A DNA stretch of 64,000 nt from NCBI RefSeq assembly GCF_000473265.1, contig NZ_KI421511.1, positions 7,599,314 through 7,663,313 on the forward strand. Reading direction: 5' to 3'. This document shows positions 4,866 through 18,879 of this stretch, piece after piece. The notes under the pieces were generated by a model. It made no database searches. It was not told the origin of the DNA and worked only from the letters and a program-made list of their open reading frames with translations. Position 1 is the stretch's first letter, and each line of letters opens with the position of its first letter. Position numbers and translations under genes: made by a program. The DNA comes from Amycolatopsis thermoflava N1165. GTDB lineage: Bacteria; Actinomycetota; Actinomycetes; Mycobacteriales; Pseudonocardiaceae.

Positions 4866-5684
4866 ATGTTTGTGGTGACCGGAGCTACCGGCAACGTCGG
4901 GCGGCCGCTGGTGCAGGCGCTCGCCAGGACCGGCGAGCCCGTGACGGCGGTGTCGCGCAAGGAAGCGGACCTGCCCGGTGCGCGGCACGTGCGGGCCGAC
5001 CTGACCGAGCCGGAGACGCTCAAGCCCGCGCTCGACGGGGCGCGGACACTGTTCCTGCTCACCTCGCCGGACTTCCTGGCGGCCGGCGGGGACCTCAACG
5101 GCGTCCTGCGCGCAGCGAAGGCGAGCGGCGTGCGACGGGTCGTGTTGTTGTCGTCGCAGGGGGTGGCGACGGGGCGGCACGCGCCGGGACTGGAGGACGC
5201 GGTCGTCACCTCCGGCCTGGAGTGGACCCTCCTGCGGCCGGGCGGCTTCCACTCCAACGCGTTCGGCTGGGCCGAAATGGTGCGCACCCGGCGGACGGTC
5301 GAGGCGCCGTTCGGGGACGTCGCGCTGCCCACCGTGGACCCGGTGGACATCGCCGAGGTGGCCGCCGCGGCGATGCGTGAGGACGGGCACGCCGGCCGGG
5401 CGTACACGCTCACCGGGCCGGAGCCGGTCACGCTGCGGCAGCAGGCGTCGGCGATCGCCGACGCGCTGGGGGAGCCGGTGCGCTTCGCGGAGCTCAGCCG
5501 GGCGGAGGCGCGGACGCGGATGCTGCAGGTCATGCCCGAGCCGGTCGTGGAGTCCACACTGGACATCCTCGGCACGCCGACGCCGGCGGAGCAGCGGGTC
5601 AGCGAGGACGTCGAGCGCGTCCTACGGCGCCCGGCGCGCAGCTTCGCCGAGTGGGCAGGCGCGAACGCGGCGGTGTTCAAGTGA
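4866..5684 (+). CDS. NmrA-like NAD(P)-dependent oxidoreductase
   Basis: The 272-aa protein opens with the Rossmann motif VTGATGNVGRPLVQAL (GxxGxxG) and continues as an atypical short-chain reductase: ARTLFLLTSP, VRRVVLLSSQGV, LRPGGFHSNAFGWAEM and an NmrA-like C-terminal region. Relatives act as quinone reductases (QOR2-type) or redox sensors. GGGAGCGGAA precedes the ATG. Its last bases overlap the GTG of the hydrolase gene (GTGA), so the two form an operon. The divergent HxlR gene fits an electrophile or quinone response. The substrate is not predictable. Confidence 0.85.
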   Translation: MFVVTGATGNVGRPLVQALARTGEPVTAVSRKEADLPGARHVRADLTEPETLKPALDGARTLFLLTSPDFLAAGGDLNGVLRAAKASGVRRVVLLSSQGVATGRHAPGLEDAVVTSGLEWTLLRPGGFHSNAFGWAEMVRTRRTVEAPFGDVALPTVDPVDIAEVAAAAMREDGHAGRAYTLTGPEPVTLRQQASAIADALGEPVRFAELSRAEARTRMLQVMPEPVVESTLDILGTPTPAEQRVSEDVERVLRRPARSFAEWAGANAAVFK

Positions 5685-6496
5685 TCCTGCACCACCGTGA
5701 GACCGGCGACGGGCAGCCGATCGTCTTCCTGCACGGCAACCCCGCGTCGTCCCACCTGTGGCGGCACATCATGCCCGCGGCGGGCCCGGGCCGGAAGCTG
5801 GCGCCCGACCTGATCGGCATGGGCGAGTCGGCGAAGCCGGACATCGGCTACACCTTCGACGACCACGCCCGCTACCTCGACGCCTGGTTCGAGCACGTCG
5901 GGCTGGACGACGTGGTGCTGGTCGGCCACGACTGGGGCGGCGCGCTCGCCTTCGACTGGGCCGCCCGCCACCCGGGCCGGGTGCGGGGCATCGCGGTCAC
6001 CGAGACGATCGTGAAGCCCATGTCCTGGGAGGAGTTCCCGCCCGCAGGCGCCGAGATCTTCCGGGCACTCAAGACACCGGGACTGGGCGAGAAGATGATG
6101 CTGGACGACAACATCTTCCTGGAGTCGATGGCTCTCGGCGAGGAGGACCGCGCGGCCTACCTGCGGCCCTATCCGACGCGCGAGAGCCGGGTGCCGCTGT
6201 TGCGGTGGGCGCGGTCGATGCCGCTGGGCGGGGAACCCGCCGACGTTGTCGCCCGCGTCGAGCACTACGACAAGTGGCTCGCGGCCAGCGGGGACGTGCC
6301 GAAGCTGCTCATGACGTTCCGCCCCGGCTTCGACACGATGATGGACGACCGGATGATCGCGTGGTGCGCGGAGAACTTCGCGGCTCTCGACATCGTCCAC
6401 CACGATCTCCCCGCCGGGCACCACACCCCGGAGGACCAGCCGGTGGCGATGGCCGCGACGTTGTCGGCCTGGCTGGACCGGCACGGGCTGCGGTGA
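5681..6496 (+). CDS. Haloalkane dehalogenase-like alpha/beta hydrolase
   Basis: The 271-aa protein matches haloalkane dehalogenases of the DhaA/LinB subgroup. It has HGNPASSHLWRHI with the halide-binding Asn20, DLIGMGESAKPDIGYTFDDH, the nucleophile Asp84 in VGHDWGG followed by halide-binding Trp85, the acid Glu108 in TETIVKP, and the base His248 in LPAGHHTPED. These enzymes hydrolyse carbon-halogen bonds to alcohol and halide in the cytosol. All five key residues are present, so activity is plausible. The GTG start overlaps the reductase stop. Other Asp-nucleophile hydrolases such as epoxide hydrolases are less likely because Asn and Trp are conserved. Confidence 0.85.
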   Translation: MILHHRETGDGQPIVFLHGNPASSHLWRHIMPAAGPGRKLAPDLIGMGESAKPDIGYTFDDHARYLDAWFEHVGLDDVVLVGHDWGGALAFDWAARHPGRVRGIAVTETIVKPMSWEEFPPAGAEIFRALKTPGLGEKMMLDDNIFLESMALGEEDRAAYLRPYPTRESRVPLLRWARSMPLGGEPADVVARVEHYDKWLAASGDVPKLLMTFRPGFDTMMDDRMIAWCAENFAALDIVHHDLPAGHHTPEDQPVAMAATLSAWLDRHGLR

Positions 6497-6534: not shown

Positions 6535-8391
6535 TCAGAACGGCAGCCGCAGCGCCAGGGCGTCCCGCACGGGGTCGTTCGCCCGGACAGCGTCCAATTC
6601 GGACGGTGACAGCGCCTTGCGGTAGAGCCGTACGTCGTCCAGCGCGCCGTCCAGTCCCATGCCCCCGTCGAGGCGGCGGCCCAGCCAGAACTGGAACGAC
6701 ACCCGCTCGGTCACCGAACCGGCCGCTGCCGGGCCCGCCGCCACCTGCACGCCGTCGACGAACAGCAGCAACTGGCCGCCGGTGCGCTGCAGCGCCACGT
6801 GGTGCCACTGCTGGTCGTTGAAGGCGCCCGCCGACGTGACCTGTTTCGTGCCCGCCGTGGTGGTCATCGACGCGATCAGGCGGTTCGCGGCCGGTTCACC
6901 GCGCAGCCAGATCTGTGGCGCGGTCGAGCCCATGCCGCCCATCCAGAAGAACACCTGGTTGGCCGTCGACGCGCCGTACCGGACCCAGCCGGTCCACGTG
7001 AAGTCGCCGTCGCCGACCACCTGCGCGCTGTCGTAGGGCACGCGCACGAAATCGTCCACGCCGTCCAGTTCCAGCGCGTCACCGTAGCGGCCGGGCACCG
7101 GAACCGGGCCGCCGATCAGGTAGGCGTCCGACCGTTCACCGGACACGTCCCGCGTCGTCGGGCCGGCCGAATTGCGCCAGCCCAGCACGTCCTCGGTGAA
7201 GCGGGCGAACCGGATCTCGTCGCGCGCGTCGACCGGGCCGCCCTCGTACATCAGGCCGATCTCGGTCGTGCGGGCGGACCGGTCGCTGATCTGCACCATG
7301 TCCGAGTAGCCGGACCACTCGTCGGTCACCCGCGTGCCCTGCTCGGCGTTCTCCCAGCTGCGGCCGCCGTCGTAGGACGAGCGGATCATCATCCACCGCC
7401 GCCGGTCGGTGTCCGACGGCGACGCGAACAGGATCCGGTCCGGCCCCGGCCGGTCCAGGCGCAGCAGCGAGCCCTGCACCATCGGCGTGACCAGGTCGGG
7501 GATCGTCCGGAACGGCTGGCTGAAGGTCTCGCCACCGTCGCGGCTGATCGCGTAGTCGCGGTTGCCGATGTCGGTGCCGCCCTGCTCGCGGCCGCCGGCG
7601 TAGATCGACCCGTCGGCGAGCTCGACGACGGTGATCTCCTGCGGCTTCTGCGTGAACGGGCCCTTCGCCTGGAACGGGTAGCTGTCCACCGCGCCGATGT
7701 GCCAGGTCGCGCCGTGGTCGTCGCTGTAGACGAGTGCGGCGTGGTTGGCCACCGGGTCGGTGCCCTGCGCGGTCTCCGCGTTCACCCCGAACACCAGGCG
7801 GCCGCGGTGCTCGCCCTTGGTGAGCTGGATCCCGTGCACCGGGCCCGAGGCGTACCACGCGTCCCACTCGGGCCTGCTGGCCTGCGCGCTGATGTCGACC
7901 GGCGCGGACCAGGTGAGCCCGTCGTCGTCGCTGTACTGCACGTGCGGCGGGCGGGCGCACGGTACGTCGCAGCCCTTGCCGTCGGTGCGGCCGGCGTTGT
8001 AGGTGGTGATCAGGACGATCCGGCCGGTCGTCCGGTCCACGATCGGGACCGGGTTGCCGTGCGTGTCGCCGTCTCCGGAGTTGATGACCTCCAGCGGTGA
8101 CCAGGTCCGGCCGCCGTCGGTGGAGCGCTTGAGGACGAGGTCGATGTCACCGGCGTCACCGCAGTCGTTGACCCGGCCCTCGGCGAACGCGAGCAGGGTG
8201 CCCGCGGTGCTCTTGACGATCGCGGGGATGCGGAAGCAGAAGTAGCCCTGCTCCTGCTTGGGGTTGAACAGCGACTGCTGGTCGAAGCCCGGTCTGGCGG
8301 TGTCGGCGGAGGCGGTGACCCCGCCGCCGAGCAGACTGGCGAACAGCACCGCCGCGAGCGGGACCGCGCGCCACGCTGCGAACGATCTCAT
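6535..8391 (-). CDS. Secreted sialidase (GH33) with LamG-type domain
   Basis: The 618-aa protein begins with a signal peptide (cleavage near ASA-DT, residue 30). The catalytic propeller carries the FRIP motif (53-56), AEGR at about 70-73, and five Asp boxes: STDGGRTW, SDDDGLTW, SDDHGATW, SRDGGETF, SYDGGRSW. A C-terminal LamG/concanavalin-like domain follows (ALELDGVDDFVRVPYDS; DVRLYRKALSPSELDAV). Such exo-sialidases release terminal sialic acid from glycoconjugates outside the cell. The ATG follows GGGAAGG. It is the last gene of the operon, 16 bases after the GH42 gene. Confidence 0.93.
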   Translation of the reverse strand: MRSFAAWRAVPLAAVLFASLLGGGVTASADTARPGFDQQSLFNPKQEQGYFCFRIPAIVKSTAGTLLAFAEGRVNDCGDAGDIDLVLKRSTDGGRTWSPLEVINSGDGDTHGNPVPIVDRTTGRIVLITTYNAGRTDGKGCDVPCARPPHVQYSDDDGLTWSAPVDISAQASRPEWDAWYASGPVHGIQLTKGEHRGRLVFGVNAETAQGTDPVANHAALVYSDDHGATWHIGAVDSYPFQAKGPFTQKPQEITVVELADGSIYAGGREQGGTDIGNRDYAISRDGGETFSQPFRTIPDLVTPMVQGSLLRLDRPGPDRILFASPSDTDRRRWMMIRSSYDGGRSWENAEQGTRVTDEWSGYSDMVQISDRSARTTEIGLMYEGGPVDARDEIRFARFTEDVLGWRNSAGPTTRDVSGERSDAYLIGGPVPVPGRYGDALELDGVDDFVRVPYDSAQVVGDGDFTWTGWVRYGASTANQVFFWMGGMGSTAPQIWLRGEPAANRLIASMTTTAGTKQVTSAGAFNDQQWHHVALQRTGGQLLLFVDGVQVAAGPAAAGSVTERVSFQFWLGRRLDGGMGLDGALDDVRLYRKALSPSELDAVRANDPVRDALALRLPF

Positions 8392-8407
8392 GTGCCTTCC
8401 CTTCGGT

Positions 8408-10381
8408 TTAGTGGAGCCGGAGGACTGCGACGCCGCGCGGTGGCAACGTGTGCCGGGCCGACGGCGCGGAACCGGTGAGCAGGTCGGGGGCCGGTTCTCC
8501 CAGGTCCACCGCGACCGCATCCGTGTTGTGGTTGAGCAGGAACAGGAACTGCCGGTCCGCGGCTTCCCGGCGGACCGCCTGGACACCGGCGGGCAGGCCG
8601 GGCAGGACCGGCCGCACACCCGCTTCCGCGGCCACCCGGTCGACCAGCTCGCGCATCCCGGCCGGGTCCAGCCGCGTGCCGAGGTACCAGGCGACACCCG
8701 CGCCGTAGGCGTGGCGGGTCACCGCGGGAGAGCCGGCCAGGTCGCCGCCGTCGAAGGACGCGACCGCCTCCGCGCCCCTCAGCTCGATGGCTTCCGACCA
8801 CAGCCTGCCGGTCCACTCCGGACTCAACGGCACCGACGTGCCCGGCGCCAGCGGCCAGAACTCCTCCACCGACACCCCGAGCGCTTCCCGCAGCGGGGCC
8901 ACCGGGTAGCCACCGAGGTGGGCGCGGTCGCACGAGTCGACGATGCCGGAGAAGAACGACACCACCAGGTGCCCGCCGCCCTCGACGTACCGCCGCAGGC
9001 CCTCGGCGGTCTCCGCATCGAGGAGGTACAGGTTCGGCACCACGACCAGCTTGTACCCCGCCGGCCGGTCGGGGCGCACCACGTCGCAGGAGATGCCGGC
9101 GTCGAAGAACGGCGCGTAGTGCGCCAGGTGCGCGTCGAGCTGCGTGACGTCGGCCGACGGGTGCGCGTCCAGCTCCAGCGCCCACCAGCTGTTCCAGTCG
9201 TGCAGGAACGCCACGTCCGACCGCACCCGCGTGCCCGCCACGTCGGCCAGCGCCGCGAGGTCCTGCCCGAGCGCCCGCGCCTCCGCGAACACCCGGGTGT
9301 CCGCGCCGGCGTGCGGCACCATCGCCGAGTGGAACTTCTCCGCGCCACCGCGGCTCTGCCGCCACTGGAAGAACATCGCCGCGTCCGCGCCCCGCGCCAC
9401 CGCCTGCAGCACACCCTGCCGCATCACGCCGGGGGCCTTGGCGCCGTTGTGCTTGCGCCAGTTCACCGCGCTCGGCGCGTGCTCCAGCAGCATCCACGGC
9501 TGCCCGTTCTTCAGCGACCGCACCACGTCGTACCCGAACGCCGCCTCGACGTGCCCGCGCGGGTCGTAGGGCTCGGGGTAGGAGTCCAGCGACACCACAT
9601 CCTCGTGCGGCTCCCACGCGTGCCAGTCCAGCGCCTTCTGCACCAGCCCGACGAAGTTGGTGGTGAGCGGGACGTCCGGCGTGACCCGGCGCAGCACCTC
9701 CGCCTCCACCCGGTAGCACGCCAGCGACGCGTCGGAGGAGAACCGCTGGTAGTCCAGCTGCTGGGCGGGGTTGCGGAAGGACGGCGCCACCCGCGGCGGC
9801 TGGATCTCGGCCCAGTCCGAGTAGCCCTGCGACCAGAACGTCGTCGACCACGCCGCGTTCAGCGCGTCCAGCGTGCCGTACCGCTCGCGCAGCCAGGACC
9901 GGAAGTCCTCGGCGGAGGTGTCGCAGTAGCACGCCCGGATGTGGCAGCCGTACTCGTTGCCGACGTGCCAGATCTTCAGCGCCGGGTGGTCGCCGTACCG
10001 GTTCGCGAGCTGCTCCACCAGCCGCGCCGCGTGCTCGCGGAACACCGGGCTGGACGGGCAGAACTGCTGCCGCGAACCCGGCGAGAGCCGCGTCCCGTCT
10101 TCGCGCACGGGCAGCACCTCGGGGTGGCGGTGGGTCAGCCACGGCGGCGGCGAGGCGGTCATCGTCGCCAGCGCCACCTGGATACCGGCCGCCGCGAGCT
10201 TGTCCATCACGGTGTCGACCCAGCCGAAGTCGTATTCGCCCGGCCGCGGCTCGACCTTCGCCCAGGAGAAGACGCCGAGCGTCACCAGCGTGACCCCGGC
10301 CTCGGTCATCAGCTTGACGTCCTCGTCCCAGACGTCCTCGGCCCAGTGTTCCGGGTTGTAGTCCGCGCCGTAGTGGATCAC
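8408..10381 (-). CDS. GH42 beta-galactosidase
   Basis: The 657-aa protein starts GTG (VIHYGADYNPEHW) at a GTGA overlap with the aldolase gene. It is a full-length GH42 enzyme: TIM barrel with acid/base Glu143 in HVGNEYGCH, nucleophile Glu300 in MLLEHAPSAVNW, then trimerisation and beta domains to the C-terminus. Four Cys (108, 146, 151, 153) match the family zinc site. There is no signal peptide, so it acts in the cytosol on imported beta-galactosides. Together with the sialidase it could remove galactose exposed after desialylation (inference). Confidence 0.93.
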   Translation of the reverse strand: MIHYGADYNPEHWAEDVWDEDVKLMTEAGVTLVTLGVFSWAKVEPRPGEYDFGWVDTVMDKLAAAGIQVALATMTASPPPWLTHRHPEVLPVREDGTRLSPGSRQQFCPSSPVFREHAARLVEQLANRYGDHPALKIWHVGNEYGCHIRACYCDTSAEDFRSWLRERYGTLDALNAAWSTTFWSQGYSDWAEIQPPRVAPSFRNPAQQLDYQRFSSDASLACYRVEAEVLRRVTPDVPLTTNFVGLVQKALDWHAWEPHEDVVSLDSYPEPYDPRGHVEAAFGYDVVRSLKNGQPWMLLEHAPSAVNWRKHNGAKAPGVMRQGVLQAVARGADAAMFFQWRQSRGGAEKFHSAMVPHAGADTRVFAEARALGQDLAALADVAGTRVRSDVAFLHDWNSWWALELDAHPSADVTQLDAHLAHYAPFFDAGISCDVVRPDRPAGYKLVVVPNLYLLDAETAEGLRRYVEGGGHLVVSFFSGIVDSCDRAHLGGYPVAPLREALGVSVEEFWPLAPGTSVPLSPEWTGRLWSEAIELRGAEAVASFDGGDLAGSPAVTRHAYGAGVAWYLGTRLDPAGMRELVDRVAAEAGVRPVLPGLPAGVQAVRREAADRQFLFLLNHNTDAVAVDLGEPAPDLLTGSAPSARHTLPPRGVAVLRLH

Positions 10382-11301
10382 AGCAGGCCCGCCTCCGTGA
10401 GCGCACCCTTGATGCGCAACAGTTCCTCGTCGTTGAGCGGCAGTTGCGGCGGCGCCATCACCGAGTTGTCGATGAACCCGCGCATCTTCATCGCCGCCTT
10501 GAACGCGCCGAGCCCGGCCGAGCCGCGGCCCATCCGCTCCGGCGGCGCGGCATGCGTGATGTCGTACAGCCGCATGAGCCGGTTCTGTTCCCGCCGTGCC
10601 GTGGCAAGGTCGCCCGCCCGCACCCGGTCCCAGATCGTCACGTACCCGGCAGGGTCCACATTGGCCAGTCCGGGCACCGCGCCGTCCGCGCCCATCTGCA
10701 GCGCGAGGTCCACCACCAGTTCGGACCCGGTGAACACGGCGAACTCCGACAGCCCGCGCTCCCGGCGGCCCAGCAGCAGCGCGCCGAACCCGGCCTCGTC
10801 GCCGCTGGAGTCCTTCAGCCCGGCCAGCACGCCGTCCTCGGCCAGCCGCAGGACCATCTCCCGGTCCAGCTTCGAGTGCACCGCGACCGGGATGTCGTAG
10901 GCGAAGATCGGCAGCGCGGCCTGCGCGTGCAGCAGCCGGAAGTGCTGCTCGATCTCCGCGGTGTGCGTGCGGGTGTAGTAGGGCGCGGTGATGACGAGGG
11001 CGTCCGCGCCGGCCTCCTCGGCGACCCGGATGTGCTCGGCGACCCGCAGCGTCGTCATGTCGATGCACCCGGCGAGCACCGGGACCCGGCCGCCGACGTG
11101 CGCCACCGCCGTCTCGATCACCACCCGGCGCTGCCGGTCCGGCAGGAACGCCACCTCGCTGGACGAGCCCAGCACGAACACCCCGTGCACCCCGGCGTCC
11201 AGCTGGACGTCCAGGTGCCGGCGCAGCGAGTCCACGTCGATGGTGAAGTCGTCGCGGAACGGGGTGCACAGCGGGGGGATGATGCCGGTGAATCGAGTCA
11301 T
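10378..11301 (-). CDS. DapA/NanA-family aldolase (sialate or keto-deoxy sugar acid lyase)
   Basis: The 307-aa class I aldolase has Schiff-base Lys163 in GLKDSSGD, Tyr135 in FAYDIP and the carboxylate-binding loop GSSSEVAF at 45-52. The family splits 2-keto acids such as N-acetylneuraminate, 2-keto-3-deoxygluconate or dihydrodipicolinate. Operon context with a sialidase favours N-acetylneuraminate lyase. However, canonical NanA has GSTGE and a K-F-T type motif, while GSSSE and KDSSGD look closer to keto-deoxy sugar acid aldolases. ATGA overlap upstream and GTGA overlap downstream indicate tight coupling in the operon. Confidence 0.8.
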   Translation of the reverse strand: MTRFTGIIPPLCTPFRDDFTIDVDSLRRHLDVQLDAGVHGVFVLGSSSEVAFLPDRQRRVVIETAVAHVGGRVPVLAGCIDMTTLRVAEHIRVAEEAGADALVITAPYYTRTHTAEIEQHFRLLHAQAALPIFAYDIPVAVHSKLDREMVLRLAEDGVLAGLKDSSGDEAGFGALLLGRRERGLSEFAVFTGSELVVDLALQMGADGAVPGLANVDPAGYVTIWDRVRAGDLATARREQNRLMRLYDITHAAPPERMGRGSAGLGAFKAAMKMRGFIDNSVMAPPQLPLNDEELLRIKGALTEAGLL

Positions 11302-12254
11302 CGCACGCTCACTTCGAGTTCGGGGTGGATGCAGTGGTAGGTGTGCCCGTCGCCGGCGTCGGCGGACGGGGGCACCGCGGCCGCGCACTCGTCCGTCGCT
11401 TTCGGACAGCGGGTGCGGAAGGCGCACCCGCTCGGCGGGCTGACCGCGGACGGCACCGGCCCGGTCAGGACTATGGGTTCGATCGGGTTCAGCAGGCTCG
11501 GCGTGGCGGAGAACAACGCCCGCGTGTACGGGTGCCGCGCGTCGCCGGGGATCGCCGCGGCCGGGGCGTCTTCGACGATGCGGCCCAGGTACATCGTGAC
11601 GATGCGGTCGCTCATCTTGCGCACGGTCTGGATGTCGTGCGACACGAAGATCATCGCCAGCCCCAGCCGGTCCCGCAGGTCGAGCAGCAGGTTGAGGATC
11701 TGCGCGCGCACCGACACGTCCAGCGCCGAGGTCGGCTCGTCGGCGACCAGCAGCGAGGGCTCCAGCGCCAGCGCACGCGCGATCGCCACGCGTTGCCGCT
11801 GGCCGCCGGACAGCTGGCCGGGCACCGCGTCCGCGACGCTGGGCGGCAGGCCGACCAGCTCCATCAGCTCGCGCACCCGCTCGGCCCGCTGCGCCGGGGT
11901 GCCGACGCGGTGCACGTCGAGCGGGTCCCGCACGATGCGGGCGATCGACATCCGCCGGTTCAGCGCGGTCGACGGGTCCTGGAAGATCATGCCGATGTCG
12001 CGGCCGAACCCACGCTGGTCCGACACCGGTTCGCCTCGGTAGCGCACGACGCCGCTGGTCGGCTTCTGCAGCCCGACGACCACCTTCGCCAGCGTGGTCT
12101 TGCCGCACCCGGACTCGCCGACCACGCCGATCGTTTCGCCGGGCCGCACGGTCAGCGTCGCGTCCGTCAGCGCGTGCACGGAGTCGTGCCCGAACAGGCC
12201 GGACGAGCGGATCTTGTGCACCACGTGCACCCGGTCCAGTTCCAGCAGGGTCAT
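11298..12254 (-). CDS. Oligopeptide/dipeptide-type ABC transporter ATPase (OppF-like)
   Basis: The 318-aa ATPase shows Walker A GESGCGKTT, signature LSGGQRQRVAIARAL, Walker B LLVADEPTSALD and the C-terminal oligo_HPY domain with Cys residues (CAFRTRCPKATDEC and HCIHPELE) that binds an iron-sulfur cluster in this subfamily. It powers import together with the fused permease-ATPase encoded just upstream. Its start overlaps that stop as ATGA. Family 5 importers carry peptides, nickel or sialic acid. The sialidase operon points to a sialoside or sialic acid cargo. Confidence 0.92.
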   Translation of the reverse strand: MTLLELDRVHVVHKIRSSGLFGHDSVHALTDATLTVRPGETIGVVGESGCGKTTLAKVVVGLQKPTSGVVRYRGEPVSDQRGFGRDIGMIFQDPSTALNRRMSIARIVRDPLDVHRVGTPAQRAERVRELMELVGLPPSVADAVPGQLSGGQRQRVAIARALALEPSLLVADEPTSALDVSVRAQILNLLLDLRDRLGLAMIFVSHDIQTVRKMSDRIVTMYLGRIVEDAPAAAIPGDARHPYTRALFSATPSLLNPIEPIVLTGPVPSAVSPPSGCAFRTRCPKATDECAAAVPPSADAGDGHTYHCIHPELEVSVR

Positions 12255-14227
12255 GCCGGCGCTCCCTTCACCAGGACCTCCGGTTCCGCCATCGGTTCGG
12301 CGGGGTGGTGGCACGCGACGAGGTGGTCCATCCCGGATCCCGCCACCACCGGCAGGTCGGTGCGGCAGTGCGCCCGCGCCGCCGGGCAGCGGTCGGCGAA
12401 CCGGCAGCCGGGCGCGAAGTCCGCCGGGGCCGGGACGACGCCCTTGATCTGGGTGAGCCGGGCGTCGTTCTCCTCCAGCGACAGCACCGCGCTGAGCAGG
12501 CCGCGCGTGTAGTGGTGCCGCGGTGCGCCGACGACCTGCGCGGTGGTGCCGGCCTCGGCGACCTGCCCGCCGTACATCACGACCACGCGATCGGCCACAT
12601 CGGACACCAGCGCCAGGTCGTGCGACACCAGCACCAGCGCGAAGCCCAGTTCCTCCTGCAGGCGCAGCAGCAGCGAGATCACCTGTGCCTGCACAGTGAC
12701 GTCCAGCGCGGTGGTCGGCTCGTCGGCCACGATCAGCCTGGGGCTGCGGGACAACGCCATCGCGATCAGCACCCGCTGCCGCTGCCCGCCGGACAGCTCG
12801 TGCGGGTAGGCCCGCAGCGTGCGGTCCGGGTCGAGGTTGACCAGCTCCACCAGCTCGCGCGGGGTGCGGGTGCCGCCGCGGCGGGTGAACTGCTTGAGCT
12901 GCGCCTGGATCGTCATCGCCGGGTTCAGCGAGCTGAGCGCGTCCTGGTAGATCATCGCGATGTCGTGGCCGAGGTGCCGCCGCCGCGCGGACGGTTTCAT
13001 CGTGAGCAGGTCCTCGCCCGCGAACCGGATCCGGCCGGACAGCCGCGCGGTCCGCGGCTGCAGCCCGACGATCGACAGCGCGGTCAGCGACTTGCCGCAG
13101 CCCGATTCGCCGATCAGGCCGAGCACCTCGCCCGAGCGCACGGTGAACGAGACGTCGTCGACGACGTTGACCCCGTTGTGCCGCTCCGGGAACGCGATCG
13201 TCAGCCCCTCGACGGAGAGCAGGGTGTCCCGCCCGGTCAGCGCACGGGCGCGGCGGGACAGCCGTTCGCCCACCTCGCGCAGACCGCGGATCGGCAGCAC
13301 CGGCGCGACGTTCTCGGCCGCCTCCTCGGCGACGACCGCCTTGGCGACCTCCGCCGCCTTCGCGGTGCGGGACGACGGCGCCGCCCACGCGTCGGAAATC
13401 CCTTCGGACAGCACGTTCAGCGCCAGCACCGTGAACAGGATCATCAGACCCGGGAACAACGTGGCCCACCAGCCGCCGTTGAGCACCATGTCCTTGCCGT
13501 CGGCGAGCACCGAGCCCCACGACGGGTCGGGCGGCTGGATGCCGGCGCCGATGAACGACAGCGACGCCTCGAACACGATCGCGTCGGCCACCATCACCGT
13601 GCAGAACACCAGGATCGGCGCGGCGCAGTTCACCGCCACGTGCTTGACCAGGATGAAGAACCGGCGCGCGCCGATGATGTGCTCGGCCGCGACGTAGTCC
13701 TCGCTGTACTGCGCCAGCACGTTCGCCCGCACCACGCGCGCGACCGGCGGCACGTTGACGAACGCGATCGCCAGGATCAGCACCCCGATGCCGCGGCCGA
13801 ACACCGCGACGAGCACGGCCGCGAGCGCGATGCCGGGGAAGGCCATCAGCACGTCGAGCACGCGCATGACCACCGAGTCCACCCCGCGCCGGGAGGTCGC
13901 CGCGAGCGCCCCGATCAGCGCGCCGCAGACCAGCGCCAGCGCGGCGGCGCCGAGCCCGATCGCGAGCGACCAGCGGGCGCCGTGCACCACGCGGGAGAGG
14001 ATGTCGCGGCCGGACTGGTCGGTGCCGAACCAGTGCGCGGCGTTCGGCCCGGTGACCTCGGTGCCCAGCGCGTAGGGGTCCTTGACCAGCAGCGGGCCGA
14101 TCAGCGCCACCAGCGCGAGCACGGCCAGCACCCCGATCGCGATCCACGACGCCGTGTTGAACCGGCGGAACCGGATACCGGGCCGGGACAGGCGCTTGGT
14201 GAGCCCGGGCCGGTACAGCTGCCGCAT
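12251..14227 (-). CDS. Fused ABC permease-ATPase (DppC-DppD type)
   Basis: This 658-aa protein joins two subunits that are normally separate. Residues about 1-290 are a DppC-like permease with its N-terminal helix (ASWIAIGVLAVLALVALIGP), the GTDQSGRDILSR motif and the EAA-loop region YVAAEHIIGA. A linker with Ala/Glu-rich sequence follows. Residues about 330-658 are an OppD-like ATPase (GESGCGKSLTALSIVGLQ, LSGGQRQRVLIAMALSRSP, oligo_HPY tail). There is no internal stop or strong internal start. The start shares one base with the upstream permease stop (TGATG). Confidence 0.92.
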   Translation of the reverse strand: MRQLYRPGLTKRLSRPGIRFRRFNTASWIAIGVLAVLALVALIGPLLVKDPYALGTEVTGPNAAHWFGTDQSGRDILSRVVHGARWSLAIGLGAAALALVCGALIGALAATSRRGVDSVVMRVLDVLMAFPGIALAAVLVAVFGRGIGVLILAIAFVNVPPVARVVRANVLAQYSEDYVAAEHIIGARRFFILVKHVAVNCAAPILVFCTVMVADAIVFEASLSFIGAGIQPPDPSWGSVLADGKDMVLNGGWWATLFPGLMILFTVLALNVLSEGISDAWAAPSSRTAKAAEVAKAVVAEEAAENVAPVLPIRGLREVGERLSRRARALTGRDTLLSVEGLTIAFPERHNGVNVVDDVSFTVRSGEVLGLIGESGCGKSLTALSIVGLQPRTARLSGRIRFAGEDLLTMKPSARRRHLGHDIAMIYQDALSSLNPAMTIQAQLKQFTRRGGTRTPRELVELVNLDPDRTLRAYPHELSGGQRQRVLIAMALSRSPRLIVADEPTTALDVTVQAQVISLLLRLQEELGFALVLVSHDLALVSDVADRVVVMYGGQVAEAGTTAQVVGAPRHHYTRGLLSAVLSLEENDARLTQIKGVVPAPADFAPGCRFADRCPAARAHCRTDLPVVAGSGMDHLVACHHPAEPMAEPEVLVKGAPA

Positions 14228-15186
14228 CACGACCGGCTCCGCAGGCGCGGGTTCACGATCAGGTACAGCACGTCGACGATCAGGTTGACCAGGACGAACC
14301 CGACCGCGATGGTGATCACGAAGCCCTGGACCTTCGCGGTGTCGCCGTCCTTGACGGCCTGGATCATGTTCTGTCCCATCCCGGGCAGCGCGAACATCGT
14401 CTCGATCACGACGGCGCCGCCCAGCAGGTAGCCGACCCGCAGGCCGAGCACGGTGAGGGGGTTGATCAGCGCGTTGCGCAGCACGTTGCGGCCGACGACC
14501 ACCACCGGCGGCAGCCCGCCGCCGCGCGCGGTGCGGACGTAGTCCTTGTCCAGCTCCTCGACCATCGAGGTGCGGATGATGCGCGTCAGCTGCGCGGCGA
14601 CCGGCAGCGCGAGCGAGATCGCGGGCAGCGCCAGCGAGTTGAGCCAGCCGCCGAACGAGTCGGCCGGGCTGACGTAGCCGCTGGTGGGGAAGAGCCCTTC
14701 GCCCACCGCGAGCCACTGGACGAGCAGCACCGCGATCCAGAACGCGGGCGCGGCGACACCGGCCAGCGTGACGATCCGGATCAGCTGGTCCGGCCAGCGG
14801 TCGCGGAACAGCGCCGACGTCACGCCGAGCACGAGCCCGGCGACGATCGCGATCAGCAGGCCCAGCAGGGTGAGCTGCACGGTCAGCGGCAGCGCGGTGG
14901 CGATGACCTGCCCGACCGGCTCCTTCGTGATCACGCTGGTGCCGAAGTCGCCCCGCAGCAGGTGCCACACGAAGTGCACGTACTGCAGCGGGAGCGGGTC
15001 GAGCAGGCCGTTCTCCTGGCGGAACTGCTGGAGCTGTTCCGGTGTGGGGTTGGCGTCGCCGAGCGCGGCCACGGCCGTGTCCACGGGGGAGAACCGCATG
15101 ACGATGAAGACGAACAGGACCACCCCGAGCACCAGCGGGATCAGGGCGAGGATGCGGGCGAGCAGCATCCGCACGACGACGGCCAC
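14227..15186 (-). CDS. ABC transporter permease (DppB type)
   Basis: The 319-aa inner-membrane permease has about six helices, beginning ILALIPLVLGVVLFVFIVMR, and the binding-protein-dependent transport loop around YVRTARGGGLPPVVVVGRN. It starts at a GTG (VAVVVRMLL) with GAGGAG seven bases upstream. The ATG six codons later is an alternative. It forms the translocation pore with the permease half of the fused protein downstream. It sits 11 bases after the binding-protein stop in the same operon. Confidence 0.92.
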   Translation of the reverse strand: MAVVVRMLLARILALIPLVLGVVLFVFIVMRFSPVDTAVAALGDANPTPEQLQQFRQENGLLDPLPLQYVHFVWHLLRGDFGTSVITKEPVGQVIATALPLTVQLTLLGLLIAIVAGLVLGVTSALFRDRWPDQLIRIVTLAGVAAPAFWIAVLLVQWLAVGEGLFPTSGYVSPADSFGGWLNSLALPAISLALPVAAQLTRIIRTSMVEELDKDYVRTARGGGLPPVVVVGRNVLRNALINPLTVLGLRVGYLLGGAVVIETMFALPGMGQNMIQAVKDGDTAKVQGFVITIAVGFVLVNLIVDVLYLIVNPRLRSRS

Positions 15187-15197
15187 GGCAGCGCTCC

Positions 15198-16799
15198 TCA
15201 GACCGGCTTGGCCTGGTTGAGGTAGATGCCCGGGTAGCCCTGTGCCCGCACGCCGGTGATCTTCTGCGCGTTCCACGCGGTGCCGAGCTGGGTGAAGACC
15301 ACGGGGTAGATGACGGCGTGCTCGGAGATCAGGTCCAGCAGCTGCTTGGTGAGCTGCGCGCGGCGCGCCTCGTCGGTCTCCGCGGCGGCCTGGTTCTGCA
15401 GGTCCAGCAGGGCCTGCGACTCCGGGCCGGTCCACCGGGCGTAGGTGGTCATGAGCACCGACGTCTTGTCGTAGTAGTAGCGGGTCAGCAGGTCCGGGTC
15501 GTTGCCGAACTGCAGCGGGTTGTTGGTGGTGGCGACGACCTCGAAGTCCTTGCCGCTGTCCAGTTTCGAGAACAGCGCCTTGGTGTCCTGCGAGTCCAGC
15601 GTGGTGGTCACGCCGATCGCGTCCCAGCCCTCCTTGATGACCTTCACGCAGTCCGAGACGAGCGAGGTGTTGGTGGTGGACAGGGTGATCGCCAGGTTGG
15701 TGACGCCGGCCTGCTGGAGCAGTTGCCTCGCCTTGTCCGGGTTGTAGGCGAAGTCGTTGGCGGCGGGCTGGGACGCGGACAGCTTCGGGTTGATGAACGA
15801 GGTCGCCGCCGTGCCCGCGCCCTGCAGGCCGATCTGGATCATCTTCTGCTTGTCGATGGCGTAGTGCAGGGCCTGCCGCACGAGCTTGTTGTCGAACGGC
15901 GCGTGCGCGGTGTTGAACATCAGGAACAGGTTGTTGCCGCCGTCGGCGAACTCGACGCTGCGGCCGGACTTGCGCAGCTGCTCGGCGTTGGCCGCCGGGA
16001 TGTTCTCCACGATCTGCGCCTCCGGGTTGGCCCCGGAGATGGCCGCGACGCGCGGCGCGGCGTCCACGATCGACTTCCACAGCATGGACTGGTAGGCCGC
16101 CGGGCGCGGGCCGTTGTACTCGGCGAACTTCTCGAACCGGGTGTAGGACAGCGGGGCCTGCTCGACGACCTTGTACGGGCCGGAGCCGACGACCTTGCCG
16201 CCCGCGGCGTCCTTCCACTTGCCCTCGAAGACGTGCTTGGGGCAGATCTTGGCGGTCTGGATGCGCTTGAGCGCGTACGGGAACGGGTGCTTGAGCACGA
16301 ACTCGACGGAGTTCTCGCCGGTCTTGCGGACTTCGGCGAGCCAGTCCGCGAAGAAGCTGTGGACCAGCACCTTTTCGTTGGGGTCGAGCACGCGGGCGTA
16401 GGTGAAGACGACGTCGTCGGCGGTGACCGGCGTGCCGTCGTGCCACTTGGCGCCGTCGCGCAGCTCGAACTTCAGGCTGGTGCCGCTGAGGTCGGCCGGG
16501 AGCGCCTTGGCCAGGCCGGGGAACGGGTCGCGGGTGATCGGGTCGCCCTCGACCAGCGATTCGTAGCAGTGCAGGTTGGCGGCCATCGAGAAGGCGGAGG
16601 CGGTCTGCAGCGGGTCCCAGGTCTGGTTGTTGCCGTAGCCGATGACCGCGGTGAGCGTGCCGGTGGAGCTGCCCGTGGTGTTGGTGGACGCCGGTCCGCC
16701 ACAGGCCCCCAGGGTGACCGAGAAGGCCGCGGCCGTGCCGGCGAGTCCGGTGTACCGCAGGAAATCGCGGCGGCTGAGGCCGGACAGGCTGTGCGACAT
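15198..16799 (-). CDS. Family 5 solute-binding lipoprotein of the ABC importer
   Basis: The 533-aa protein has a twin-arginine signal (SRRDFL at 9-14) and lipobox LGAC with Cys33, so it is exported by Tat and anchored to the membrane. The mature part is an SBP_bac_5 fold (TWDPLQTASAFSMAANLHCY; KWHDGTPVTADDVVFTYARV). This family usually binds peptides, but the sialic acid importers SatABCD and SiaEFGI are also of this type. It is the first gene of the operon. The divergent GntR gene and the operator-like repeats lie just upstream. Confidence 0.9.
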   Translation of the reverse strand: MSHSLSGLSRRDFLRYTGLAGTAAAFSVTLGACGGPASTNTTGSSTGTLTAVIGYGNNQTWDPLQTASAFSMAANLHCYESLVEGDPITRDPFPGLAKALPADLSGTSLKFELRDGAKWHDGTPVTADDVVFTYARVLDPNEKVLVHSFFADWLAEVRKTGENSVEFVLKHPFPYALKRIQTAKICPKHVFEGKWKDAAGGKVVGSGPYKVVEQAPLSYTRFEKFAEYNGPRPAAYQSMLWKSIVDAAPRVAAISGANPEAQIVENIPAANAEQLRKSGRSVEFADGGNNLFLMFNTAHAPFDNKLVRQALHYAIDKQKMIQIGLQGAGTAATSFINPKLSASQPAANDFAYNPDKARQLLQQAGVTNLAITLSTTNTSLVSDCVKVIKEGWDAIGVTTTLDSQDTKALFSKLDSGKDFEVVATTNNPLQFGNDPDLLTRYYYDKTSVLMTTYARWTGPESQALLDLQNQAAAETDEARRAQLTKQLLDLISEHAVIYPVVFTQLGTAWNAQKITGVRAQGYPGIYLNQAKPV

Positions 16800-16853
16800 G
16801 ACGTCTCCTGACTTGTGCGTCGTTGATCAGGCCGGAGCAGGGAAGTAGGACGT

Positions 16854-16863
16854 AGGACGTCCT
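16854..16863. promoter_or_regulatory. GntR operator candidate 1 (AGGACGTCCT)
   Basis: A perfect 10-bp palindrome preceded by the direct repeat GTAGGACGTAGGACGT (16845-16860). It lies 55 bases upstream of the binding-protein start in the divergent promoter region. A near copy (GTAGGATGTCC at 16915-16925) sits beside the regulator gene, so the common element is GTAGGAYGTCC. Confidence 0.6.
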
Positions 16864-16914
16864 GCGACCGGGTGACTGTAAACAGCGGCGCGTCCCGTGG
16901 TCAAGGGGTCTGAC

Positions 16915-16925
16915 GTAGGATGTCC
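16915..16925. promoter_or_regulatory. GntR operator candidate 2 (GTAGGATGTCC)
   Basis: It is an imperfect copy of the element at 16852-16862, located 35 bases upstream of the regulator GTG. Two related sites, one near each divergent gene, fit a FadR/FCD-type repressor controlling both itself and the glycan operon. Confidence 0.55.
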
Positions 16926-16959
16926 GGAAATCCGGCGGTCAGCAGGCGGGGAGTTGGAT

Positions 16960-17670
16960 GTGGCACGCCCTCAGCTCGGCGACGAGATCAGCAAACGGAT
17001 CATCGACCTGATCATCGAGCGGGACCTCCCGCCCGGCTCGCCGATGCCGACGGAGCTCGACCTGATGGCCGACATCGGGGTGAGCCGCAATTCGATCCGC
17101 GAGGCGATCCGGGCGCTGCGGGCGCTGGGGATCGTCGAGGTGCGGCACGGGTACGGCACGTTCGTCGGCTCGGCCGGTTCGGAGGCGTTGCGGACGTGGC
17201 TGCTGTTCCGCACCCGGACGCCCGGGGCGGGGACGACCGGCCGGTTGCGGGACCTGCTCGAGGTGCGGGAGATGCTGGAGACCGAGCTGACGCGCCGGGT
17301 CGCGCGGCGGCACCGGCCGGAGCTGATCTCCGCGCTGGAGTCGTGCGTGGTGCGGATGCGCAAGGGCCCGGACAGCGCGGCCGCCGATCGTGAGTTCCAC
17401 GACCTGATCTGCGCCGAGGCCGGGTTCGACCTGGCCCGCGAGCTGACGCGCCTGTTCTGGGACGTGTACCGGGCGGCGGAGGCCGAGCTGGGTGGCCCAG
17501 CAGGTTCGGCGAGCTCCACGGCGAAACGTCACCAGGCGATTGTCGATGCGCTGGTGGCCGGGGATGCCGATGCCGCCGAGGAGGCCGTGCACCGGCACTT
17601 CGACGAGGTGCGGAAGCGCGCGAAGGCCGGCAAGTACGGGGGATTCGGGGTGGCGGCGCCGGTTGAATAG
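16960..17670 (+). CDS. GntR/FCD-family transcriptional regulator
   Basis: The 236-aa protein has an N-terminal GntR winged helix (LPPGSPMPTELDLMADIGVS, then RNSIREAIRALRALGI and RHGYGTFVG) and a C-terminal all-helical FCD domain with likely metal-binding residues (EFHDLICAEAG; RHQAIVDALVAGDADAAEE). This is the NanR/FadR class. The GTG start at 16960 follows GGCGGGGAG at proper spacing; longer readings lack a ribosome site. It is divergent from the sialidase-beta-galactosidase operon and is its probable repressor, with a sugar acid as the likely effector (inference). Confidence 0.88.
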   Translation: MARPQLGDEISKRIIDLIIERDLPPGSPMPTELDLMADIGVSRNSIREAIRALRALGIVEVRHGYGTFVGSAGSEALRTWLLFRTRTPGAGTTGRLRDLLEVREMLETELTRRVARRHRPELISALESCVVRMRKGPDSAAADREFHDLICAEAGFDLARELTRLFWDVYRAAEAELGGPAGSASSTAKRHQAIVDALVAGDADAAEEAVHRHFDEVRKRAKAGKYGGFGVAAPVE

Positions 17671-17913: not shown

Positions 17914-18879
17914 CTACAAAACCCGCCCCAGCCAGGAGGCCTGTTCGGCGACCTGAGCCCCCTGCCCTCCTTCGTGCTCATTCCACTCCCACACCCGGAT
18001 CTCCGAATCCCCACCCCACCGGTTGAACGCCGCGAACACAGTCGACGGAGGACAAACCGGATCCCGCAACGCCACGCTGAATAACGCAGGCGCCGAAGCC
18101 CGCGAAGCCAGCACGGCCCCGTCGAAATACCGCAGCGTGGCAAACGCCTCCCCGGCCCGGTGCCGGTGCGCGGCCAGCCACGTCACCAGCTCCAAATATG
18201 GCCCCTCGGAAGCGATCTCCGCCCCACGGCGGAAGTGGCACAGGAACGGCACGTCCGGCATCGCGGCCGCGACCCCGGGCGCGAGTGCCGCCGCGGCGAT
18301 CGTGATTCCGCCGCCCTGGCTGCCACCCGCCACCACGATCCGGTCCGCGTCCACCGACGGGTGCGCCCGCGCTGCCGCCACCGCCCGCACCGCGTCGACG
18401 TACACCCGCCGGTAGAAGTACTGCGCCGGGTCCAGGATCCCCAGTGTCATGAACCCCGGCACGTGCGGCCCGGCCGACCACGAATCGCCCGTCGCGCCGG
18501 GCACCGACTTCCCGCCCTGGCCGCGCGTGTCCACCACCAGGTGCGCGTACCCGAACGCCGACCACGTCAGGTAATCGTGCGGCAGGCCGCGGCCCAGGTT
18601 GTACCCCAGGTACTGCACCACGCACGGCAGCTTGGCCGGCCGGTCCCGCGGCAGCAGCAGCCACGCCGAGATCCGCTGCCCGGCCGCGCCGGTGAACGAC
18701 GCGTCGAACACCTCCACAGTCCGCAGCAACGTCTCCTGTGGACGGAACACCGGGTCCAGCGGTGACCGGTCCGCCTCGGCCAGCGCGGTGGCCCAGAAGG
18801 CGTCCAGGTCGGCGGGTTCGTCCAGCGGCGGCCGGTACTCGGACAGCTCGGACAGCGGCAGGTCGTACAGCGTCGTCAC
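17914..18879 (-). CDS. CE7 acetyl esterase (acetylxylan esterase/cephalosporin-C deacetylase)
   Basis: The 321-aa protein carries the CE7 signatures: RGQGG at 119-123, nucleophile Ser187 in GGSQGG, and the C-terminal catalytic pair in EWNEHEGGQ. These cytosolic enzymes remove acetyl groups from imported xylo-oligosaccharides, other acetylated sugars or cephalosporin C. Length is normal for the family and there is no signal peptide. It runs convergently to the GntR gene and tail-away from the TetR gene. Whether it deacetylates sialic acids or sugars released by the adjacent operon is speculation. Confidence 0.9.
   Translation of the reverse strand: MTTLYDLPLSELSEYRPPLDEPADLDAFWATALAEADRSPLDPVFRPQETLLRTVEVFDASFTGAAGQRISAWLLLPRDRPAKLPCVVQYLGYNLGRGLPHDYLTWSAFGYAHLVVDTRGQGGKSVPGATGDSWSAGPHVPGFMTLGILDPAQYFYRRVYVDAVRAVAAARAHPSVDADRIVVAGGSQGGGITIAAAALAPGVAAAMPDVPFLCHFRRGAEIASEGPYLELVTWLAAHRHRAGEAFATLRYFDGAVLASRASAPALFSVALRDPVCPPSTVFAAFNRWGGDSEIRVWEWNEHEGGQGAQVAEQASWLGRVL

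Follow-up and report, generated by a model that had tools for sequence, protein, structure and literature searches.

A candidate operon for scavenging Kdn-containing glycans in Amycolatopsis thermoflava N1165

Genes and operator-like sites of the locus

We analyzed a 64,000-nucleotide stretch of the Amycolatopsis thermoflava N1165 genome (contig NZ_KI421511.1, positions 7,599,314 to 7,663,313; hereafter the window), which carries genes for an importer, an aldolase, a GH42 beta-galactosidase and a sialidase that together may serve to scavenge glycans containing Kdn (2-keto-3-deoxynononic acid). The genome measures 8.69 Mb in two contigs and its completeness is rated 100%. A preliminary description, made from the letters of this DNA alone, had placed a sialoglycan-scavenging operon at positions 6535-17670, and family matches bear out the gene set that it named: seven minus-strand genes and a divergent GntR/FCD regulator (Table 1). 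According to their coordinates, each minus-strand gene either overlaps its neighbour, by 1 to 4 bases, or is separated from it by 16 to 23 bases, and because of this tight arrangement it is plausible that the seven genes share one operon transcript. We take the regulator gene to start at position 16960 and not at 16897.

Table 1. Features of the sialidase-aldolase locus, in window coordinates
Feature	Position	Strand	Matches and remarks
GntR/FCD (FadR/NanR-like) regulator	16960..17670	+	Divergent; Pfam FCD 4.2e-23, GntR 1.5e-17
Operator-like site GACGTAGGACGTC	16849..16861	+	Exact match, gap between regulator and binding protein
Second operator-like site GACGTAGGATGTC	16912..16924	+	Exact match
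Substrate-binding protein, family 5	15198..16799	-	Pfam SBP_bac_5 1.2e-70
ABC permease (DppB/OppB type)	14227..15174	-	Pfam BPD_transp_1 1.4e-35
Fused ABC permease (DppC type) and ATPase (DppD type)	12251..14227	-	Pfam BPD_transp_1, ABC_tran, oligo_HPY
Second ABC ATPase (DppF type)	11298..12254	-	Pfam ABC_tran 7.1e-34, oligo_HPY
Nonulosonate aldolase, C. glutamicum NAL subgroup	10378..11301	-	Pfam DHDPS 6.6e-45; PDB 5c54, E 9.5e-86
GH42 beta-galactosidase	8408..10381	-	Pfam Glyco_hydro_42 1.5e-153; PDB 9ta3 3.2e-199
GH33 sialidase, predicted secreted, with C-terminal LamG-like domain	6535..8391	-	Pfam BNR_2 and Laminin_G_3
AXE1 (CE7-type) esterase, possible accessory gene	17914..18879	-	Pfam AXE1 2.7e-103

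By eye, the N-terminus of the binding protein shows a Tat-like (twin-arginine translocation) RRDFL motif and an LGAC lipobox. SBP_bac_5 proteins constitute the sialic acid transporter family ST3 of a published census of nan genes (PMC8754123). Both the SBP_bac_5 (ST3) importer and the FadR-type regulator are features of nan clusters, and the top NCBIfam model of the regulator is NanR (PRK03837), at 106 bits under a cut-off of 260. An importer for peptides only was also considered and rejected: family-5 binding proteins are peptide-type, but the fixed neighbourhood with the aldolase, and often with a sialidase, in many genera argues against this.

Two exact GACGTAGGAYGTC sites are present in the gap between the regulator and the binding protein genes (Table 1). 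The core ACGTAGGAY occurs in 42 of 55 homologous gaps, close relatives among them, against 0.24 expected in block shuffles, and 61 of the 66 GACGTAGGAY sites found in 1.70 Mb of loci are intergenic and directly precede the gene for the binding protein, the regulator, the aldolase or the sialidase. The FCD regulator would repress the operon at the GACGTAGGAYGTC sites. The core is also present in two clusters that contain NanE (L144 and L199), indicating that it marks the regulator family and not the substrate.

Distribution of the cluster and search for NanE

In a sample of 298 genomes of the order, the aldolase was matched at E 1e-40 or better in 29, and 127 genomes had some match to the sialidase or its LamG-like domain. 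Synteny was complete, from the regulator to the sialidase with GH42 included, in 5 of 20 sialidase-hit regions (L082-L086), and the same gene order was found in the named Amycolatopsis loci L132-L134 and L138 and, without the regulator, in L137. A scan of named genomes gave 594 stretches among the matches listed, 544 of which encode an aldolase relative; the best 80 were kept, and the closest named aldolases among the matches listed were those of Amycolatopsis deserti (97%) and A. thermalba (96%). The set of regulator, importer and aldolase is also found in Streptomyces, where it often lies beside leuA, and in Actinomadura, Nonomuraea, Kribbella and Micromonosporaceae, the relatives in Streptomyces and its kin being mostly without GH42. 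The cluster is common in named soil genera, and the earlier remark that it would be unusual in a soil organism is not supported. About 40% of nan-positive actinobacterial species are free-living (PMC8754123). Of note, one aldolase relative among the best 80 loci comes from outside Actinomycetota (L176, Ktedonosporobacter rubrisoli, Chloroflexota, 55%) and groups with the Amycolatopsis clade on a quick tree, on a long branch.

Altogether 100 loci with an aldolase of the N-acetylneuraminate lyase (NAL) family were compared, 81 without and 19 with NanE, including the near-duplicates L082/L133, L199/L235 and L202/L236. Some of these loci stop at contig ends (L163 and L142, for example), and absence of NanE refers to the stretch available.

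The preliminary description had correctly reported that nanE, nanK, nagA and nagB are absent from the neighbourhood and had supposed them to lie elsewhere. A search of the whole A. thermoflava genome, however, gave no match to NanE (PF04131), AGE (N-acylglucosamine 2-epimerase; PF07221) or NagB (TIGR00502), with models that found NanE, AGE and NagB in 8, 2 and 8 of 14 known genomes used as controls. NagA had one match above the cut-off and the ROK family 11. Consequently N-acetylmannosamine derived from Neu5Ac (N-acetylneuraminate) would have no known route in this host. The genome has neither a canonical nan cluster, with nanA, nanK and nanE within 10 open reading frames, since it gives no NanE match, nor the Bacteroidetes variant with AGE-type NanE-II and RokA, since PF07221 finds no match in it.

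We searched for NanE in 56 genomes, namely 6 of the order sample and the hosts of 50 of the 80 named loci, mostly bearing NanE-less clusters and with controls added; among cluster-bearing genomes the NagA and NagB searches covered A. thermoflava. All six genomes with NanE beside the aldolase, L165 being counted among these controls, gave a NanE match. In the 50 genomes without adjacent NanE, whose clusters include some with no sialidase nearby, there was no NanE match in 40, a partial or weak one in 2 and a full-length NanE elsewhere in 8; neither NanE nor AGE was matched in 30. Within the window's own family, 13 genomes carry the aldolase and only one of these (G282) a full NanE. A kinase gene, pfkB-like to judge by its opening residues, stands near the NanE-less aldolase in Nonomuraea (L170, L171, L175, L198, L208 and L211) and Phytohabitans (L197).

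Sialidase, aldolase and GH42 types

The sialidase has a signal-peptide-like N-terminus (by eye) and the features of GH33, with the RIP-motif Arg, Asp boxes (BNR models), active-site Glu and Tyr and a propeller fold; R54, E252, R268 and Y362 are invariant in 24 aligned sialidase rows, and the AlphaFold model has a mean pLDDT (predicted local distance difference test) of 84. Over residues 44-200 its top five PDB matches are 7p1b (8e-24), 2xcy and the variants 4m4n, 4m4v and 4m4u, with Streptococcus pneumoniae NanA (3.6e-20) and 1eur (1.7e-16) lower down. We take 7p1b to be the Kdnase of Aspergillus terreus and 2xcy with its variants to be that of A. fumigatus. In the printed alignments Asn113 and Arg147 of the window enzyme face Asn and Arg in both 7p1b and 2xcy. 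The residue aligned with Arg147 reads Leu in 4m4v, where the altered position is presumably R171 of the A. fumigatus Kdnase, which we believe to matter for substrate choice. The A. fumigatus enzyme is reported to favour Kdn by five orders of magnitude (PMC5778107).

We then compared the sialidases encoded in aldolase-bearing loci (67, or 66 after near-copies were dropped). Asn113 and Arg147 are both present in 58 of the 60 sialidases from NAL loci without NanE, the exceptions, L179 and L205, being contigs of metagenome-assembled genomes. In sialidases of NAL-ROK-NanE clusters site 113 is never Asn (0 of 7) and always Asp, and one has Arg at the 147 site. The sialidase of the complete cluster L140 has as its best match the Micromonospora viridifaciens enzyme (1eur, 1.7e-61), which in the printed alignment has Asp at the Asn113 site. 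Asn113 and Arg147 could set specificity for Kdn, and the type of the window sialidase suggests Kdn, not Neu5Ac, as its target. Two or three Kdnase-type sialidases, from both subclades, occur together in clusters L087, L091, L136, L158, L173, L183 and L195, where they may cut two linkages of one polymer. In genome G240 (L032/L092) a sialidase-like frame of 1179 amino acids matches the C-terminal LamG-like domain repeatedly and has no aldolase match nearby.

The best solved relatives of the aldolase are 5c54 and 5c55, entered as 'Dihydrodipicolinate synthase/N-acetylneuraminate lyase' (Table 1); from its 312 residues and matching motif positions, 5c54 is probably the NAL of Corynebacterium glutamicum. 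The window enzyme contains the Schiff-base Lys (K163), the Tyr (Y135) and the GSSxE motif (GSSSE, with E49) of the NAL subgroup, and Y135, K163, E49 and E194 are invariant across 15 aligned aldolase rows. Curated NanA models stay under their cut-offs (TIGR00683, 82.4 versus 382 bits; PRK04147, 88.1 versus 281 bits). A plain DapA was rejected as an identity, the dapA model being under its cut-off and this gene ranking third by score among six dihydrodipicolinate synthase (DHDPS) family places in the genome. The C. glutamicum NAL favours synthesis and cleaves Neu5Ac poorly, its kcat/Km at pH 7.5 being 0.28 per s per mM versus 23.75 per s per mM for the Escherichia coli NAL (PMC5380162). On a quick aldolase tree the NanE label must have switched no fewer than 5 times, starred branches making 2 of the switches unavoidable. 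The sialidase type tracks this label except in the two metagenome-assembled loci L179 and L205; one NanE-less row, L163, ends at a contig end and may represent missing data. Some aldolase residues (169, for example) separate NanE-linked from NanE-less rows, none of them clearly linked to the sugar and all confounded by relatedness.

The GH42 enzyme has the three GH42 domains and, in alignment with 9ta3, the NEYG and LLEHAP motifs, which we take to hold the catalytic Glu residues. Its GH42 domain starts at residue 7 and no signal peptide was seen by eye, so that the enzyme should be cytosolic and act only on imported sugar. This does not support a stepwise removal of sialic acid and then galactose outside the cell; of the two enzymes it is the sialidase that begins with a signal-peptide-like sequence. 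A GH42 gene was found in 22 of the 81 NAL loci without NanE versus 0 of the 19 with NanE, and this bias, together with the place of the gene in the operon, fits a galactose-Kdn substrate that would be imported as such. In the distant clusters L089 and L091, gene order and first residues place GH42 beside a separate three-gene ABC-like sugar importer set, with a gene resembling the major facilitator superfamily near, and no family-5 importer gene was found in these two clusters.

A proposed Kdn route, its alternatives and known systems

The products of aldol cleavage of Kdn are pyruvate and mannose, so that NanK, NanE, NagA and NagB would not be needed for its use. We propose that the operon scavenges glycans that contain Kdn, the most plausible candidate being galactose-Kdn teichulosonic acid from the walls of other actinomycetes, and not animal sialic acids, and regard the chances of this proposal as evenly balanced. 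The secreted Kdnase-like GH33 enzyme would free Kdn or galactosyl-Kdn pieces, which the family-5 binding protein and the Opp-type ABC importer would take up; in the cytosol GH42 would remove beta-linked galactose and the NAL-family aldolase would split Kdn into pyruvate and mannose. Mannose would then enter central metabolism through general hexose kinases, and the FCD repressor on its GACGTAGGAYGTC sites would gate the operon. Streptomyces walls are reported to carry chiefly teichulosonic acid, a polymer built of galactose and Kdn that often bears N-acetylglucosamine or methyl groups (PMC11481543, PMC7831098). Kdn is described as resistant to most bacterial sialidases, for which reason a special sialidase is to be expected, and the surface of a Haemophilus influenzae nanA mutant is richer in Kdn, which suggests that NanA acts on this sugar (PMC7845648). 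The A. thermoflava genome gave no NeuB match, so that the host is unlikely to make a nonulosonate and the substrate is likely to come from other organisms. On sequence grounds the Kdn proposal accounts for the gene set better than Neu5Ac scavenging does. What survives of the sialoglycan operon first described is a nonulosonate operon with importer, aldolase, sialidase and NanR-like FCD regulator, its Neu5Ac interpretation having been weakened by the whole-genome search.

Several observations speak against the Kdn proposal. The whole-fold comparison with Foldseek ranks the M. viridifaciens enzyme, Trypanosoma and NEU1 first, with no fungal Kdnase among the 50 matches listed, and in a full-length phmmer search NEU1 comes first and the best fungal Kdnase 14th. 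When the 8feb group is set against a Streptomyces sialidase of this clade, Gln falls at the Arg147 site and the Arg comes one position later, which makes the alignment register near Arg147 uncertain. The Asn/Arg sialidases group together in a single clade (SH-aLRT 99, by a quick method with the two columns left out, the program warning that long branches meet), and the residue split may thus be a single event. The aldolase shows no clear Kdn signature, its NanE-linked and NanE-less rows making up one subgroup, and its E49 is the residue of Neu5Ac lyases. To these must be added the 8 of 50 genomes with a full-length NanE elsewhere, the full-length NanE of 15 of the 29 aldolase-bearing genomes in the order sample (absent in 14), and AGE-family matches in 13 of the 56 genomes, mostly weak and strong in the full-operon genome G278 (9.3e-103). 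Finally, the proposal presupposes that the galactose of teichulosonic acid is beta-linked and sits on Kdn.

A serious if unlikely alternative is ordinary scavenging of Neu5Ac, which would be freed, imported and cleaved, with pyruvate alone being used or N-acetylmannosamine being handled by an unrecognised enzyme. The aldolase is indeed closest to the C. glutamicum-type NAL, which cleaves Neu5Ac (PMC5380162), actinobacterial nan clusters typically have SBP_bac_5 importers and FadR-type regulators (PMC8754123), the core of the operator-like sites is shared with the NanE clusters L144 and L199, and some operon-bearing genomes have an AGE-family match. Such scavenging fits poorly with a genome that has no NanE, AGE or NagB match, with 40 of 50 kindred clusters lying in genomes without a NanE match, and with a sialidase that differs from the type in complete nan clusters. 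It is improbable that the substrate is another 2-keto-3-deoxy sugar acid, such as Kdo (3-deoxy-D-manno-octulosonic acid) of plant rhamnogalacturonan II or bacterial polysaccharides, from which the aldolase would give pyruvate and arabinose: the sialidase keeps its GH33 residues and matches Kdnases best in its first half, and the regulator and importer are of the types of nan clusters, although a Kdo path could dispense with NanE, the NAL family of aldolases is versatile and GH42 enzymes act on plant galactans. Turnover of the host's own teichulosonic acid by the operon would surprise us greatly. Strong NeuB matches do occur in 40 of the 50 genomes without adjacent NanE, including all 27 Streptomyces there (a count that covers cluster-bearing genomes), but none was found in the window's genome or in the full-operon genomes G255 and G150.

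Next to the locus, the AXE1 esterase may remove O-acetyl groups from the substrate. It adjoins the cluster in L083 and L084, sits between the aldolase and the sialidase in L087 and is present in the NanE cluster L210. At 4866-6496 of the window two plus-strand genes converge with the sialidase gene and look, from their sequence, NmrA/SDR-type (short-chain dehydrogenase/reductase) and haloalkane-dehalogenase-like.

Beyond this genome, it is possible, at somewhat less than even chances, that a widespread actinomycete Kdn system (a Kdnase-type sialidase clade, an ST3-type importer, a NAL aldolase, an FCD regulator with GACGTAGGAYGTC sites and, in several lineages, GH42) feeds on or turns over wall teichulosonic acid and has gone uncounted. 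The census of nan genes counted only species with nanA, nanK and nanE, or with nanA, nanE-II and rokA, and its main text mentions neither Amycolatopsis nor Kdn (PMC8754123). In a metagenome survey with nanE as marker, sialidase genes exceeded nanE in frequency about 21-fold in non-human environments, and the word Kdn is absent from its accessible main text (PMC10570557). Surveys keyed to nanA/K/E or to nanE would miss this class. If the proposal is correct, a NanE-free Kdn route would explain part of the gap between sialidases and nanE, soils included, part of the soil sialidase genes that have no matching nanE would be Kdnases, and an abundant actinomycete wall polymer would be given a fate. 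No report of this system was found among the papers listed by literature searches, whose coverage lacks most subscription papers.

The actinobacterial ST3 nan cluster, as in C. glutamicum, shares with the window an SBP_bac_5 importer, a FadR/FCD regulator, a C. glutamicum-type NAL and sometimes a sialidase (PMC8754123). The window differs from it in having neither a NanK-NanE pair nor a genomic NanE match, in the added GH42 gene and in its sialidase subfamily. The M. viridifaciens sialidase (1eur) is a secreted actinobacterial enzyme with the same GH33 fold; its Asp replaces Asn113 of the window sialidase, and by sequence it is the best match of the complete-cluster sialidase L140 and not of the window sialidase. 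With the fungal Kdnases (2xcy, 7p1b) the window enzyme has in common GH33, the GNPxPxVD motif and Arg at the corresponding site, whereas these come from another kingdom, the LamG-like domain belongs to the window enzyme, and whole-fold and full-length rankings do not favour them. A bacterial Kdn route with a Kdnase and a NAL-type, Kdn-specific aldolase has been described in Sphingobacterium, a member of another phylum, where the aldolase owes its Kdn specificity to Asp50 (PMC10017367); in the window aldolase the residue at presumably the same motif is Glu49.

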